From Steinernema hermaphroditum (taxonomy: Eukaryota > Nematoda > Chromadorea > Rhabditida > Steinernematidae): a DNA stretch of 64,000 bases. The position numbers and the translations under genes were made by a program. The notes under the pieces were generated by a model. That model saw only the letters and a program-made list of their open reading frames with translations, did no database searches and was not told where the DNA came from. This document shows, piece by piece, positions 4,538 to 44,306 of this stretch (its first letter is position 1; every line of letters begins with the position of its first letter). Location: positions 3,434,769 through 3,498,768 of the forward strand of contig CM059624.1 in the NCBI GenBank assembly GCA_030435675.1, written 5' to 3'.

Positions 4538-6415
4538 ATGCAGTTTGAGCCGGATCTCGTGTCGGATCTGTCCGATTCCGACGGAGAAGGATCGGAGCCG
4601 ATGGTTATGTAAGCACTTTCTTTGTTTATATTACTGCTTGAAGTCAATAGCCTAGGCCCTGTTTCTGGTATGACGGTATTTAAAAGTCCTTTTTATGTTA
4701 ATTGTGAAAGAGCAATGACAAAGCAGATGACGGCCATCATGACACACCTTTTATTTCGGAATATGACTAAATGAATAGTTGGTAACGTCTGACTATGACT
4801 TTATTTTATGAATCAAAGGCCACCATCGTTCTCTGTCGCCACCGCGACACGAATGACAGTCCGTTATTCATGTTATGAATCAGAAAATATCGCTATTAAA
4901 GGCTTTCTATGATGCAAAATCTCATCAAGTTCTGTTTACCGTTTTTCGATCCTGTCATCCTCTTTTGCCGTTCATTTCCTACATTACAGTTGGGGCAGCT
5001 TTCTCCCGTCAAGATGTATGGAATCTGTCGCAACCTTATACAACCGCTTGATATTGCAATTTACTCTTTCAGTACCTATCACGACAACCCGCCTGGTCAC
5101 ACCATCTCCGCTACACTCAGACAATTTGTTCCATTTCAAAACGACGACCAGCGCGAAACATACGGGACTCGTTGGCACCAGTGGGACCGAAACGAAGAGA
5201 CACTGCCAGGCGGAGAAACCGGCTGGGTCCGGGACATCACGCTCTCCTATGTCAGGCAACAAGCCGGCATCGACCTAGTCAACGAGTATCCAGCACCCAG
5301 TGACTCGATGGACGAAACACAATCACACGATCAAATCCACAATCCTATTCTCGAGGACGACGCGTTCAAGTGTCCGATCTGTACGGAGATCTTCGCGCAG
5401 CCAAAGCTGCTCCCTTGCTGTCGCCGATCGATCTGTGAGAAGTGTGAGCGACGCATGGTGCATGAGTCCGAGTCAGGCAACTGTCCCATGTGCAATAGTC
5501 CGGGACAGATCAGGCGAACCAGAGTGCTCGGGGTGAACATCGACTTGAGAAGTAAGCAGAAAAGAGTTGACTAAGCTTGGTTTATCGGATTCATTTAGAC
5601 GCTATCGAGGCCTTGAACAAGCAGAAACCCGATGTCACCAAGCCGGCCTGTCAAGAGTGTCAGAGAATTGTGGATCAGGACGATTTGTGCTTCTGTGCCA
5701 CCTGTGATCGAGAGGTAAGTGAATGTAGTTTAAGAAATGGCTTAGGCTGCCTCGCCAAGCGGGTAAAATATCATGTAGTTTACGACAAGGCTACCTTTAA
5801 AACAACTTAAGGTATTGATTAGATGATGACAGTTTCCATGGGATCAAGAGCCCAATACAGAGTGTTGCATAAAGATAGGGCCACCCTGTTTTTTCACGAT
5901 TTTGATGGAAACTATGTCCGAATCAATCACAGTAACCTTTCAGAAATTCATCTGCTGGCGTTGCGGAGGAAAAGCTCACAAAGGTCACGATCTCGAAGAG
6001 CTGAAGTATGTCGGCCTGGAAGAACGACAGAGAGCTTACGATGCGCTGCAGAGGTCGGATTGCGCCTTCAACGATGTGAAGACGAATCTCCAAAAGGGTC
6101 ATCAGGACTGTTTTGAGGTTAGTTGCTGCGAGCAAACTGTGCATCTATGTAATGATGTTCAGAAAGCCGGTGATATTCTTGATCGAGCCAAGAACATTGC
6201 CGAGGAGACGTTGAAGAACAACTACCAAACGGATAAGGAATTTCACGAGAAGCTGAAGAAGATAGAGAAGATTCAGACGCATATAGATAGAGTAAGGAGA
6301 TGTGTATTGGACTCATTGATGGATAGATGCCTATCTTCAGATCACACTAGCTTTAAAGCACATACACAACGATATGCAACAACTCACTGATCAGATCATG
6401 GAGGACGAACGTTGA
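4538..6415 (+). CDS. RING / B-box-like / coiled-coil protein 2 (TRIM-like)
   Basis: Six exons: 4538-4608, 5073-5551, 5599-5714, 5944-6117, 6163-6291, 6341-6415, giving 347 residues. The first exon encodes an acidic start (MQFEPDLVSDLSDSDG) and is preceded by TTTCAG at 4521-4526. The RING-like domain is at about 124-164 (CPIC ... LPCCRRSICEKC ... CPMC), the B-box-like C6H2 module at 201-237, and a coiled-coil tail at 245-340. It is the closest relative of the 1.5 kb gene, with the same intron phases (phase 1 after the RING, phase 0 inside the B-box). As there, Arg replaces the RING His. The 45-nt intron at 6118-6162 is a multiple of three without a stop, so a naive translation would retain it; the paralogue alignment supports its removal. 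Likely an intracellular E3-ligase-like protein. Confidence 0.8.
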
Positions 6416-15224: not shown

Positions 15225-15406
15225 AACTGGGTAGCAGTAAAAGGCTTTGAGATCGATCGAAAATCGGGTCTGTCATACGAGGTGGTACTTGGGTCAGGAA
15301 CTCAATTCGATCACAGCCGATGTGCGATGCTTTCGCACATCGTGCACTGCTAGCAGATGCATATAAAAAGCGACTCACGTACAGCATGACCCTTTCATTC
15401 TTGACC

Positions 15407-16601
15407 ATGTATCCAAACCGAAAACGCAGTCGACCCACCGTTATCGATCCTCTCGAGCGTCTCGATCATCTCGATCGATTCGATCATCTCGAGCGTCCTC
15501 GATCTTCACGTCCTAGCCGAGATGCGGAAAGAGACGGCTCGAGATCGATACTTTTGGATCTTATTCCTCCAGCGGCCTCTTCAAGCAGTGCTGCCTCATC
15601 GTCCGTCCGTACCCGTTTGAGTCCACAAAACATTTTGCCTGCATCCTACTTAGACATGCCTACAATATTGCCAGTTATGGACTTCGAACGCGATTTCCGA
15701 AGTTTCCTCGACTCAAACGCAACGTCTCCTCGATGGAGTCCTCTAATCATTCCATCAAACAGCCCTCCTTCTGCGACCCAACCTCAATCCTCTACGCGTC
15801 CCACTGAAACCCAAAATGAGACATCTTCGTTCGATAGTAACGGCTTGGAGTGCCCCATCTGTTGTGATGTGTTCACTTCCCCAAAAGTGCTGTCGTGTTG
15901 TGGACAATCACTTTGTCAACCTTGCGCTGTGCGAGCTTGCTCTAGGCATTGTCCGTTCTGTAGAAGTCGCGTAAACAGCAGGCATTTGAAGGACAATGTC
16001 GCCCTCAGAAGTAGGTCGCTTTTCTGAATACTTTTGCTGAACATCAACATATTTTAGATTTCATAGAGACCAGCAACTCGCAGAACAAAGACACGCTTTC
16101 GAAGTGTTCAACTTGTAACGAAGACGTCGACAAGAAACACGTTTACAGTTGCACTACGTGTGGAGCAGAGGTAAACATTTTATCTGAGAAATGTCCATAT
16201 GCATCCAATTCAGGAAAACATCTGTCCTCACTGCATTATCGCCAACCATCCTGGTCATGCAGTTCAGCAACGCTACGTAAGCAAAGACTGTCTGAAGAAG
16301 ATAATCGCTGAAGTGGGCTTGACAGAACAGATTTGTGGAAACGAGTCCGAGTCATATCTGAAAACCTTCGAAAATGCTCAGAAGAAGATTCAAGATGTCG
16401 TCACGCAGCTGAAGCGTCGGGAGCTGCTAACGGAAAAGGAAGCCAGAGATAAGCTCGACGAGATCAAGCCGCATGTGGAATTGATCAAAAAGGTAATGGT
16501 TGAATGCAAGTTATAGTCTATAAATGATGAACGTTCAGGCGCAGAACATGGCGCAGGTATTCGAAGCGCAACTGACGAATGTAAATGCCCATGTCGACTG
16601 A
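15407..16601 (+). CDS. RING / B-box-like / coiled-coil protein 5 (TRIM-like)
   Basis: Four exons: 15407-16010, 16058-16170, 16214-16492, 16539-16601, giving 352 residues. The long N-terminus is Arg/Asp/Ser rich with a short Leu-Asp-His-Leu-like repeat from TCGATC-type DNA repeats. The RING-like domain is at about 149-185 (CPIC ... LSCCGQSLCQPC ... CPFC); the usual RING His is Gln (CCGQ). The B-box-like module is at about 219-255 (CSTC, CTTC, CPHC, H-x2-H), followed by a helical tail to the end. Intron phases equal those of the paralogues. An in-frame ATG at 15386, one base after a CAG, is an alternative start. AATAAA at about 16661 can serve as polyA signal. Confidence 0.8.
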
Positions 16602-18375: not shown

Positions 18376-18775
18376 TGTAGCTTGTAAGGCTTGTACAGAC
18401 TCGTTGGCATTTCAATCAGCCGCTTATAGGGCTCTTGCAGATATAAATAAAGCTCTTAAGTCATTCAGACAGTCTCAGAGCGCACCGTTCTGGGCTTTGC
18501 GTGATCGACATCGAGACGAGACAGACTGGCGAGCGAGACGTCTGAACTCGGTCCATAAAAGGGAAGGAAAGCGGTCGGGACGCCATTCGAACTGCGAGCT
18601 TCGAACAAGGATGGATCTCTCCCAGAATCCCGCTGGTATCCCGCTTCCTCGGCCCCGGATTTCTCGCCTTCGAACACGCCTTCTCTGCAAGGAGCGCAGT
18701 CCGACGCCGTACCCGCACTACTCCTGGAGGTCTCTGCCTGTGTCGGCGCCGATCAAAACGTGATCGATTGTGAAC
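18376..18775 (+). mobile_element. possible solo LTR (tentative)
   Basis: This noncoding block has a TATAAATAAAGC signal near 18441, dense GC-rich sequence after it, and ends near GGCGCCGATCAAAACG. The layout TATA, polyA signal and GGCGCC resembles an LTR with adjoining primer site. I see no second copy and no target-site duplication, so confidence is low. Confidence 0.2.
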
Positions 18776-19049
18776 AGTTTTTTGTGGTAGTTTTGGTATT
18801 TTGCACAATAAACACTTGTATACCATTCTGTCATTGCTCTTCCGCTCATCTATCTCGTGGCAATGTGACTGGGTTTTAAAGGCTTCTCGTGTTCTTGGGG
18901 CGGGGCCGCAATGACCCAGAAAACACAATGAAAATTTACGGAAATCAAAGCGGAAAGTAAAGCGAGACAGAAACACCAGAAAGGCACACAGGCAGTCAAA
19001 AGGCAGTTTACAGCGACACCGTTCAAATGAAATTAAATAATATATGCAT

Positions 19050-20286
19050 CTATTCATAGTGGATCACGAAATTCTTCCGTTCTCTTCCGACTTTCTCGTT
19101 GAGGAAAAGCTTCTGGGAGAATTCCTGAACGGTAGGGTCGACATCGTCGATGAACATGTAGTCAATCGAAAGTCTATCGTCCTTGGTGGACGGAGTAGAA
19201 TCCTGGAGATCCACAGCGACTTTTATCTAAAATGCATCGGAATCATAAACGCTAATAACTTACGAGCTTACCTGAACAGAGCCGCCAACAGAAAGAATTC
19301 CATACGAAGGAGTGGCACCAATTCGTTTGCGTGAGTTCGTCTTGATCGCCCACATGATACGACGTGCAGCGTTGTTGGAAACGTAAAGAACGCACTGCTG
19401 CCGATTCGGCAAAGCAAACGTCAACGTATCGGCTGGCGTTGTGATCAGATCATTCTTGGGAGCTTCCTTTACAGACTGCGTTGATTTTCCCAAAGTCATT
19501 GTTAAATCCTGAAATTATATGATTAATTAAAAGAAAACAGTTGTGCTCAACCATGGTCGTTGCTGACGGCTTGGAAGTCGATTCGACTGAACCACTAGAA
19601 GTGCTAACCCGTGCTGTAGTGCACTCGGACTTTGCTTCACTTGCATTTGGTGGTGGAGTCTTCGCTGTTGATGCGGCGCTTCTTTCACTACTCTTTGTAG
19701 ATTTGTTCTGAAAACGAAACACAAGTCAACTATGTACCAACAGTCACATTTTCTTACTGTTGCAAGCGCCTTCTTGCTGAGGTTGTCAAGCGTTTCCGAC
19801 AACAGGGAAGACTTAGACGACCCTGGCGGATTTAGTCCCACCGGAAGATCGTAGTATTTTTCCGAGCTCAGACGATATCCATGGAGCAGCATGATGCTCA
19901 AGAAAGTGAATTTGGCGACGTAGTAGCCAACGAGATCATTCATGGCCGAGTCGACCACAACGAGCACACCTTGAATAGTCCAGTAGAGCAGCATAAAGTT
20001 CTGAAAATAGATAAAATTAAGCCGAAATTCAACGATGACAACGACTTACCACCTGCTCGGCGATCTCGTCGTTCCACATCATCCACACATTAAGGAGAGC
20101 GGCTGGCACGCATGTGAAAAGATGACAGACGAATCTGGCCTCTCGTCCGACGGCCAAATAGATTGCGATCAACACGCAGATTCCAAGGACGACTTCTCGC
20201 CTTCGCGGCAACCTCTGAATCAGCGGCAACAGGTGTCGCGAGGCACCCGTCTGAGAGCGAAGCGATTCGCTCGAACGACCCTTCAT
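19050..20286 (-). CDS. REEP (TB2/DP1/HVA22)-like protein fused to an MSP domain
   Basis: Five exons on the minus strand: 20286-20050, 20000-19758, 19707-19552, 19508-19272, 19226-19050, all phase 0, giving 349 residues. Residues ~25-140 are hydrophobic with four membrane-dipping segments (e.g. VVLGICVLIAIYLAVG, YYVAKFTFLSIMLL) and align in order with TB2/DP1/HVA22 proteins, which curve ER membranes. Residues ~161-213 are a Ser/Thr-rich linker. Residues ~214-349 match the major sperm protein fold (VLYVSNNAARRIMWAIKT, then RKRIGATPSYGIL, then DRLSIDY, ending near RKNFVIHYE). The Lys of the IKT motif, important for FFAT binding in VAP proteins, is kept. Together this suggests an ER-shaping protein with a cytosolic adaptor. 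The N-terminus is uncertain: a TTTCAG site and another ATG in a different frame lie about 90 bases upstream. Confidence 0.75.
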
Positions 20287-20525: not shown

Positions 20526-20706
20526 TTCGGATTTTTGGAAACGATCACGACGGTCAGCGAGCGAAAAACGATGTGCCGGTGTGGATTCGGGGAATTGTGT
20601 CACTACCGTACTCTTATTAATCGGCAGATCCCTTGCGAGGCCCAAATCCACACTGGCACATCGTTTTTGGCTCTCCGACCGTTGCGATCGTTTCCAAAAA
20701 TCACGG
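20526..20706. repeat. imperfect inverted repeat, 66-nt arms
   Basis: The arm at 20526-20591 (GGATTTTTGGAAACGATC ... AAAAACGATGTGCC ... GTGGATTCGGG) is the near-exact reverse complement of 20641-20706, with a ~49-nt spacer and only a handful of mismatches. Transcribed from either strand it would form a long hairpin. No flanking coding sequence explains it. Confidence 0.85.
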
Positions 20707-42349: not shown

Positions 42350-44306
42350 TCAGTTGGCAATCGATGACTTTCGCTGAGCAGAATTCTGCTGCATGAGTTT
42401 TGGAGGAATGAGCAGTTCCTCTTCGACCGTTTGGGCGATCGTGTGCGAAGGCTCGTGTTTGCTTATCGCCTCTGGGGGCTCGTCGAATCTGCCCTTTGAG
42501 CCCTGAATGCATATGCTTTTGGTTATGCTACTCACATGCTGGCACACCTTTTTGCTTTTCCAATAGAAGATTGTCCCGAGAGTGGAGACGGTGCAGAATG
42601 CGACGAAGAAGATGACGCAGGCGGTGGTGTAGAGATGTCGCTTGGATCTTCGCGGCTTCTTCGCGTTCTCATTGTCCTCGAGCTCGGCGACGTCTTCGAC
42701 GTCGACGTGCCGCAGGATCTTGCAGTAGTGGCGGTTCTCCTGCGTCCGGAAGTAGGGACATCCCATGCCAGGACAGTAGTAGGCGTCCTCGGAAAGGATC
42801 GCCGACGAGAGGTTGTACTTCTCGCCGGCGATCAGCCGATTCCACAGCCACTTGGCGGCGTAACTATGCCCGCGACGATTAAGAAGGGGGCGGTTGGGGA
42901 TGAAGAGAGAGTAAGGGTACCGGGAGGTGACCGTAAGCATTGGAATCGCGAGCATGCCAAACGTTTTTCTCTGAAACGAAGGTGTTAGGATAGAGGTGTA
43001 AGGACGCAGGGGTACTTTGACGGAGTTGACGTGCTCCTGGAGATTCTCGAATGCTTCGGTCCACGAATCGCTGAGGGCATCCATGAATTCGATTTTTTCT
43101 TCTTTCGAGCAGGCGCATCGGTTTTGAAGCAGGTTAGCCTGTAACTTTGTGGTCAGCACCTGTGATTTTTCGATCGTTACCTTAAGGCGATATGCAGAGG
43201 AGACGTGGATCGGCCCGAGCAAAACAACGAACGCCTTGTGGATGCCGCGGTTGAGGATGTCGAGGGCTTCCACGAGCGCATCATAGTCGGGCGCTTTGCA
43301 GCCACCACAAATCTCCTCAGTACCGATAGTGATGATGACCATGGTCCACGTATTCCACACATCGACCTCCTTGAGGAGTCGCATACGGCGAACGAGCTCC
43401 TTCGCCTGTTGTGGCATCGTGGCGCTGGTGGCGCCTTCCTCAGCGACGTTCAGCTGATGAATGGGCAGCTGCTCGCTGGTGCCCATGCCGTGACTGACTC
43501 CCACGAGCTCCTGAGCGTGGAACTCGCGCATAATGTTCGGAATGGTGACGAGGCCGTCGATAGTGGCGTCGCCGCCAATGGGGAAAGCGGCCCCACGGAA
43601 CTCGATACCCGTCTGCGGCCAGAGGCCGGTGCCCGTGGCTAGCGAGTCGCCCATCGCGGCGATGATGCCGAAATCTTCGGGCGTGAGGTCACCCACGGAG
43701 CGGCCTGTGACGAACTCCTGCTTGATGCGCGGACAGCTGAAGCTCTTCCTGAAAACAAAGGCAACTGAAAGGGCCTCTCGGGGAGACTCACTTGTTGTTG
43801 AAGACTCGCTCGATGATGGATACGGTCTCGGGAGGACCATGCTGTTTCCCCGGCACCACGGGATGCAGGTCGCGGTCGGCGAAGTCTTCAGGATTGCGTT
43901 CTTCACTTATACCGCTGTCGCCGTCTTCGATCTCCTCGTCGGACTCCTCCTCCGAATATTCGTGGTCCTCATCAGGCGTATGCATCGCCTGTAGCTTATC
44001 TGTAAAAGCGTTACGGTCAACGATTTACCACAAGTGGCACCTACCGTGCTCCGCTTCCTCCCTGCGGATGTCAGCCAGTGTCTTGTCAATCTCCTCTGGT
44101 CTTCGGGCATCAGCGCTCTCTCCGAGGAACGGCGAAGCCGCCTTCGACTCTGAGATCTGTTTCGCGGGCTGAAGCGTTCCGACCGACGAAGAACGATTGC
44201 TGTGGACGTTGTAGTAGCCTTCGGGCGTGCGCACAACGCTGACGGCGGCCTCCAGGGCCAAAAGCGAGACGGCGAACAGAGCTACATGGAAGCTTGGATG
44301 GTGCAT
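42350..44306 (-). CDS. phospholipase-B1-like GDSL membrane protein, probable pseudoenzyme
   Basis: Three minus-strand exons: 44306-44045, 43999-43792, 43748-42350, giving 622 residues. A signal peptide (FHVALFAVSLLALEAAVS) begins the protein, followed by an acidic region (EYSEEESDEEIEDGD). The SGNH/GDSL domain starts near 180: the nucleophile block AAMGDSLATGTG (Ser 192), a GVSHGMGT block and the TIGTEEICGGC block align with membrane phospholipase B1. The block that should supply the catalytic Asp and His (PDCFHFS..GH in PLB1) reads PNRPLLNRRGH, so both appear lost, and GGND is GTEE. A transmembrane helix (529-552) and a ~70-residue cytosolic tail end the protein. A possible 33-nt in-frame intron (42503-42535, GTGAGT...TTCAG) would remove 11 tail residues. 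Confidence 0.8.

Follow-up and report, generated by a model that had tools for sequence, protein, structure and literature searches.

A predicted Steinernema protein that joins a diverged REEP-like membrane domain to a sperm-type MSP domain

The window analyzed here, a stretch of 64,000 nucleotides of the Steinernema hermaphroditum genome (contig CM059624.1, here C4), carries on its minus strand, from 20286 to 19050, one five-exon gene in which every junction is in phase 0. The predicted product has 349 amino acids and is 100% identical over 100% of its length to the deposited S. hermaphroditum prediction QR680_004154. The four introns measure 49, 50, 43, and 45 bases and all have GT-AG borders; exon 1 has two possible donors, three bases apart, and the deposited protein uses the later one. 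The features of the gene are as follows.

Exon 1, 20286-20050, minus strand: start codon (20286-20284), basic N terminus, and TM1 (YLAxGxxARFVCHL) and TM2 of a REEP-like domain; based on hydropathy windows at residues 32-50 and 52-70 and on sequence identity to QR680_004154.
Exon 2, 20000-19758, minus strand: the remaining half of the REEP-like domain (LLYW..QG, TM3, TM4, YYV.KF), then the beginning of the linker; based on a Pfam TB2_DP1_HVA22 match at residues 77-125 (18.5 bits) and hydropathy windows at residues 81-99 and 102-120.
REEP-homologous stretch, 20184-20050 (exon 1, from about residue 35), then exon 2 to about 19884 (residue 118), minus strand: based on hhalign.
Exon 3, 19707-19552, minus strand: Ser/Thr-rich linker.
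Exon 4, 19508-19272, minus strand: last linker residues, with the invariant TMTL, and the MSP domain as far as GSVQ; based on a Pfam Motile_Sperm match at residues 233-330 (60.7 bits) and on invariant alignment columns.
Exon 5, 19226-19050, minus strand: remaining MSP domain with an MSP-type last strand (RERKNFVIHYE) and stop codon (19052-19050); based on an alignment with MSP chains that reaches residue 124 of 126.

A first-pass annotation had given this gene the same coordinates, strand, five exons, and phase, all of which proved correct. Its central claim, the fusion of a membrane hairpin domain to an MSP domain through a Ser/Thr linker, holds at the level of the gene model: serine and threonine make up 39% of the linker (residues 135-226), and the arrangement is conserved in three Steinernema species. 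A 173-base inverted repeat (20530-20702), which matches its own reverse complement at 73%, lies about 245 bases upstream of the start codon; a search of the genome found no other copy of it.

A search with the full-length protein returned six entries, namely the window protein itself, three models of a paralogue (QR680_004133), and one protein each from S. glaseri (53% identity) and S. carpocapsae (43%), both covering 99% of the query. These amount to four distinct predicted fusion proteins, P0001 (the window protein), P0002 (the paralogue), P0005 (S. glaseri), and P0006, and all four have both domains and the linker in one chain and in identical order. Exon phases were read in the two S. hermaphroditum genes, the S. 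glaseri and S. carpocapsae members being known from predicted proteins. The paralogue lies inverted and about 103 kb away (C4:3349499-3350923, compared with C4:3453821-3455054 for the window gene). It has six exons, all in phase 0, and one GC-AG intron; its exons pair one for one with those of the window gene, apart from one extra linker exon, and its linker is longer. Judging from overlapping matches (window 19839-19552 and 1323-1659 of the paralogue locus, L009), the extra exon looks as if it arose by tandem duplication of a segment that runs from the last part of exon 2 through the intron into the first part of exon 3.

Comparison of the two S. hermaphroditum copies over 349 codons gives a dN/dS of 0.35 (bootstrap 0.26-0.47). 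By part, it is 0.22 (0.12-0.36) for MSP exons 4-5 and 0.38 (0.24-0.57) for REEP exons 1-2. For exon 2, both dS and dN are probably overestimates, because its end, which looks homologous to part of the paralogue's extra linker exon, was paired with exon 2 of the other copy and so perhaps with a non-homologous stretch. These values show that the REEP-like and MSP domains, as predicted, have both been kept by purifying selection between the copies. Linker exon 3 has only 3 synonymous and 11 nonsynonymous differences, and its dS of 0.08, against 0.56-1.03 in the other exons, suggests a recent exchange between the copies in this exon, after an older duplication. Downstream of the gene, the stretch 18504-18865 is 93% identical to one downstream of the paralogue (C4:3351180-3351548) and thus closer between the copies than the gene stretches are (77-82%); the search gave no further copy of it.

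It could be argued that two adjoining genes were merged by gene prediction, since the models are predictions only, and one deposited paralogue model (P0004) extends into a PF01060 domain, perhaps through a false join with the next gene. This is extremely improbable. The phase-0 junctions are preserved in the paralogue, domain order and linker are preserved in the proteins predicted for S. glaseri and S. carpocapsae, and both ends are under purifying selection. Introns of 43-50 bases, furthermore, leave no room for an intergenic region, and on these short introns and the conserved junctions the idea of two joined genes was rejected.

The predicted protein is a new combination of two known kinds of domain, conserved in three species of one genus. 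The architecture was not found outside Steinernema in protein searches with the full-length protein, with a four-protein profile, or, in a large protein set, with the REEP part only. The profile search (E ≤0.01) returned the same six entries; its scoring was confined to the 7998 candidates with the most words in common, and plain MSPs fall outside its length limits. The REEP part alone recovered only four entries, all from S. hermaphroditum, and because it missed the S. glaseri and S. carpocapsae proteins, it says little about absence elsewhere. The architecture is not known as a described family according to the first-pass annotation, and our literature searches agree: the combination of a REEP-like with an MSP domain, including PF03134 with PF00635 and the locus tags, was not found in searches of the open-licence PMC literature, and HVA22 with MSP domain and sperm gave no match there. 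Papers in the same collection that pair REEP with "major sperm protein domain" concern membrane contacts, to judge from their titles, and a paper on MSP domains does not mention REEP (PMC7610837).

Detection of both domains by profile search, which the first-pass annotation had put forward as a check, succeeded for the MSP domain (60.7 bits against a cut-off of 25.9) and fell short for TB2_DP1_HVA22 at the Pfam cut-off (18.5 against 27.2). Indeed, TB2_DP1_HVA22 (PF03134) scored 18.5, 15.2, 20.2, and 16.8 bits in the four proteins, below the gathering cut-off of 27.2 in every case, with E-values of 0.00056-0.021 (0.0019 for the window protein); in paralogue P0002, an unrelated family, SVN, scored slightly better (0.018) than TB2_DP1_HVA22 (0.021). 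A match under the curated threshold needs further proof, and this was supplied by profile-profile comparison. When an N-terminal profile of the four fusions was aligned by hhalign to eight REEP peptides of the same genome, the alignment of 83 columns had a probability of 94.6 and a score of 47.2; when the roles of query and target were swapped, the values were 77.2 and 34.4, and the reversed sequence scored 9.7. Shuffled controls reached at most 17.0 (60 free column shuffles), 21.2 (100 within hydropathy classes), and 25.8 (100 within six residue classes), and a chance match between hydrophobic sequences was rejected on these three designs (maximum 25.8 against 47.2).

Taken singly, the sequences scored 27.7 (P0001), 25.7 (P0002), 49.4 (P0005), and 38.2 (P0006) in hhalign, so that neither S. 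hermaphroditum protein clearly exceeds the top shuffle (25.8), and the REEP relation is plainest in S. glaseri, which has the highest score. With a profile of the genome's REEPs, the matches were likewise strongest in S. glaseri (6e-9) and S. carpocapsae (7.8e-5) and much weaker in the two S. hermaphroditum proteins (0.0083 and 0.093). In the other direction, the best partners of the four-fusion profile among the genome's REEPs were L001 (8.1e-7), L002 (7.2e-5), and the fragment L005 (0.0075); L004, L007, L003, and L008 were weaker (0.12 to 35), and L006 was absent among the matches listed. The REEP set comprised the eight with loci out of nine genome matches, L005 and L007 being fragments only. 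REEP1-4 are not known to have the first helix. Since the profile alignment spans TM1 to TM4, first helix included, and the best partners are L001, L002, and L005, we take the relation to be of the REEP5/6 type. Four hydropathy windows (mean ≥1.2) lie in the N-terminal part of all four proteins, and two of the four have another inside the MSP domain. Together, these comparisons show that the predicted N-terminal part, with its four hydrophobic helices, is a diverged domain of the REEP5/6 type.

With REEP5/REEP6/Yop1 and HVA22, the fusions share the order of the four hydrophobic helices and the motifs seen in L001 and L002, namely YL..G..A...C.L in TM1, YW before TM3, and Y..K at TM4. They differ in being highly diverged (15.2-20.2 bits, cut-off 27.2), in having an MSP domain, and in lacking a common amphipathic helix after TM4. 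Such a helix after the hairpins was not found as a feature common to the four fusion proteins: a candidate is common to both S. hermaphroditum copies (moment 0.41 and 0.44), but in the other two species the best stretch lies elsewhere (0.32 and 0.46), the moments of three genome REEPs being 0.44-0.49. As this canonical REEP element was not found in common among the four proteins, ER-tubule shaping is at most a possible function of the fusion protein. The want of a shared helix of this kind could also be taken to mean that the N-terminal part is an unrelated four-helix anchor, not derived from a REEP, which would make the fusion simply a membrane-anchored MSP protein; the scores below the gathering cut-off in all four proteins, and the two single sequences at or just above the top shuffle, point the same way. 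We regard this as highly improbable, given that TB2_DP1_HVA22 was matched in all four (related proteins, so not independent) and that the profile-profile score of 47.2, over an alignment from TM1 to TM4, stands against at most 25.8 in shuffles that preserve residue classes.

An AlphaFold2 model built with the four-protein alignment is poor (mean pLDDT 42.2, pTM 0.28) and has four helices followed by a beta domain, in the expected order; we count it as weak support only. Foldseek of this model against the PDB gave 287 matches at E ≤10 and none at ≤0.001, and the best 50 include no named MSP or REEP; we base no conclusion on this comparison. No listed REEP match of the genome lies within 15 kb of a listed MSP match (these are best candidates only, and the REEP list omits the present gene pair).

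At the other end of the protein, Pfam Motile_Sperm (PF00635) scored 60.7, 44.9, 47.1, and 53.9 bits in the four proteins, above the cut-off of 25.9, with an E-value of 1.4e-16 for the window protein. Against the PDB, four MSP sequences came first (2.3e-10 to 2.8e-9, aligned over their entire length, last strand included), with VAPB next at 0.0089. The genome has at least 65 MSP matches, of which 27 pieces were translated, some of them presumably VAP, SSP, and MOSPD-like, as we label them. Fifteen entered a tree together with the four fusion domains; L018, L023, L041, L042, and L045-L052 were omitted as near-copies, short or broken, and the one internal stop in L043 was read as X. In this tree of 19 rows, in which 7 of the 16 inner branches have support below 80, a branch with support 99/98 separates the four fusion domains and three MSPs from the VAP-like piece and the other 11 MSP-domain pieces. 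The fusion domains are 25-29% identical to the three genome MSPs, 10-26% to the other pieces, and 14-18% to the VAP-like piece. The predicted C-terminal domain thus shows itself to be a member of the sperm MSP branch and not of the VAP branch. With nematode MSP (PDB 2msp, 1msp, 1grw), it shares the whole fold, aligned to residue 124 of 126; MSP chains have 126 residues and no membrane part, whereas the fusion has 349 and four hydrophobic helices.

The first-pass annotation had also offered a VAP-like role, in which an MSP domain that binds FFAT motifs is held on ER tubules by the hairpin and there makes membrane contact sites. The plan of VAPA/VAPB/Scs2 and the MOSPD proteins, an MSP domain in the cytosol attached to a membrane anchor, is indeed similar, and all four fusion proteins have an identical basic loop, KTNSRKR. 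At the positions of VAPB K87-F88-M89, the fusions have R-L-S, R-L-S, R-I-S, and R-M-S, and the MSPs R-I-T or R-I-V. Thus, the FFAT-contact residues K87 and M89 are absent from all four fusions, replaced by R and S, and F88 is L, I, or M; R309 preserves the charge of K87, and an arginine is also found there in two other pieces, u43 and u44, which keep F-M or F-L. FFAT binding is reported to be impaired in VAPB with K87D and M89D (PMC4068158), although those changes differ from the ones in the fusions. The genome, moreover, already has a VAP-like piece (L031) that carries KFMVQ, with K and M at VAPB positions 87 and 89. VAPB is described as tail-anchored (PMC8707790), whereas the fusion has its anchor N-terminal to the MSP domain, with which the protein ends. 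The grouping on the MSP branch (99/98), the identity of 25-29% against 14-18%, and the serine in place of the FFAT-contact methionine make a VAP-like FFAT receptor unlikely, and this claim was not upheld.

The other role named at first pass, that of a protein of an ER-derived organelle in sperm, fits the predicted protein better than that of an FFAT receptor. We tentatively propose, with somewhat less than even confidence, that the gene encodes a membrane-anchored, sperm-type MSP protein that ties or nucleates MSP polymer on ER- or Golgi-derived membrane. Production in sperm is something we infer from the MSP branch only. The helices of REEP5/Yop1 are hairpins in the membrane, with both ends cytosolic. 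By analogy, the helices of the fusion would be inserted as hairpins into a membrane of ER or Golgi origin, leaving both termini in the cytosol; there the MSP domain, extended on its linker of about 90 residues, might dock with MSP dimers or filaments, so that MSP polymer would be tied or nucleated on the membrane. The identity to MSPs of only 25-29% means that the polymer contacts may have been lost. In spermatocytes, MSP fibrous bodies form against the cytosolic side of the membranous organelle, which would be the likeliest site. Speculatively, the protein could be regulated through phosphorylation of its Ser/Thr linker.

The long linker might instead allow the MSP domain to be cleaved off and released as a secreted signal, with the hairpin as a mere carrier, and secretion of the VAP MSP domain is described for VAPB and its fly and worm homologues (PMC7610837). 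We consider this quite unlikely, as the hairpin exons are under selection as well (dN/dS 0.38).

A location at the fibrous body-membranous organelle would not be without parallel. SPE-47 and SPE-50, larger proteins with C-terminal MSP domains, are described as FB-MO associated in Caenorhabditis elegans (PMC7774929), and the window gene might be the Steinernema counterpart of these proteins with a diverged N terminus: the order is the same, an N terminus of unknown function followed by a C-terminal MSP domain, and the location is compatible. By the published description, however, the MSP domain of SPE-47 and SPE-50 is missing its last beta strand, which is present in the fusion, and the term transmembrane is absent from that text (PMC7774929); we hold such a relationship to be very unlikely. 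The proposed role of a membrane-anchored organizer of MSP polymer is also reminiscent of Ascaris MPOP, which we compare by description. MPOP is reported to be a membrane protein that participates in MSP assembly (PMC3203103, PMC4400581); a 2014 paper makes it an integral membrane protein with a nucleating role in that assembly and with no C. elegans homologue known at that time (PMC4105102). MPOP resides in the plasma membrane, whereas the fusion is placed, by inference, on ER- or Golgi-derived membrane.

Anchorage of MSP polymer on nematode sperm membranes is only partly known. A natural fusion of hairpin and MSP domain suggests that membrane and MSP are physically linked and gives a testable gene in S. 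hermaphroditum, for which forward and reverse genetic tools are described (PMC10858997). It also indicates that, outside the VAP family, a sperm-branch MSP-fold domain can gain a membrane anchor. It is imaginable, though rather doubtful, that the protein is a lineage-specific membrane receptor for MSP filaments: with the hairpin fused to a sperm MSP, the organelle membrane would bear a copy of the filament subunit that seeds or holds the fiber and possibly curves the membrane. If so, the protein would be a concrete candidate for coupling the MSP cytoskeleton to membranes.

Elsewhere in the window, three plus-strand open frames (1686-2399, 4900-5574, and 15251-16027) have similar RING-like cysteine patterns; Pfam zf-C3HC4_3 scored 25.2 bits in the first and 26.2 in the second, just under the cut-off of 27, and gave nothing at 0.001 in the third. 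On the minus strand, an open frame at 42350-43906 carries a GDSL-like lipase domain (40.9 bits, cut-off 23.6).
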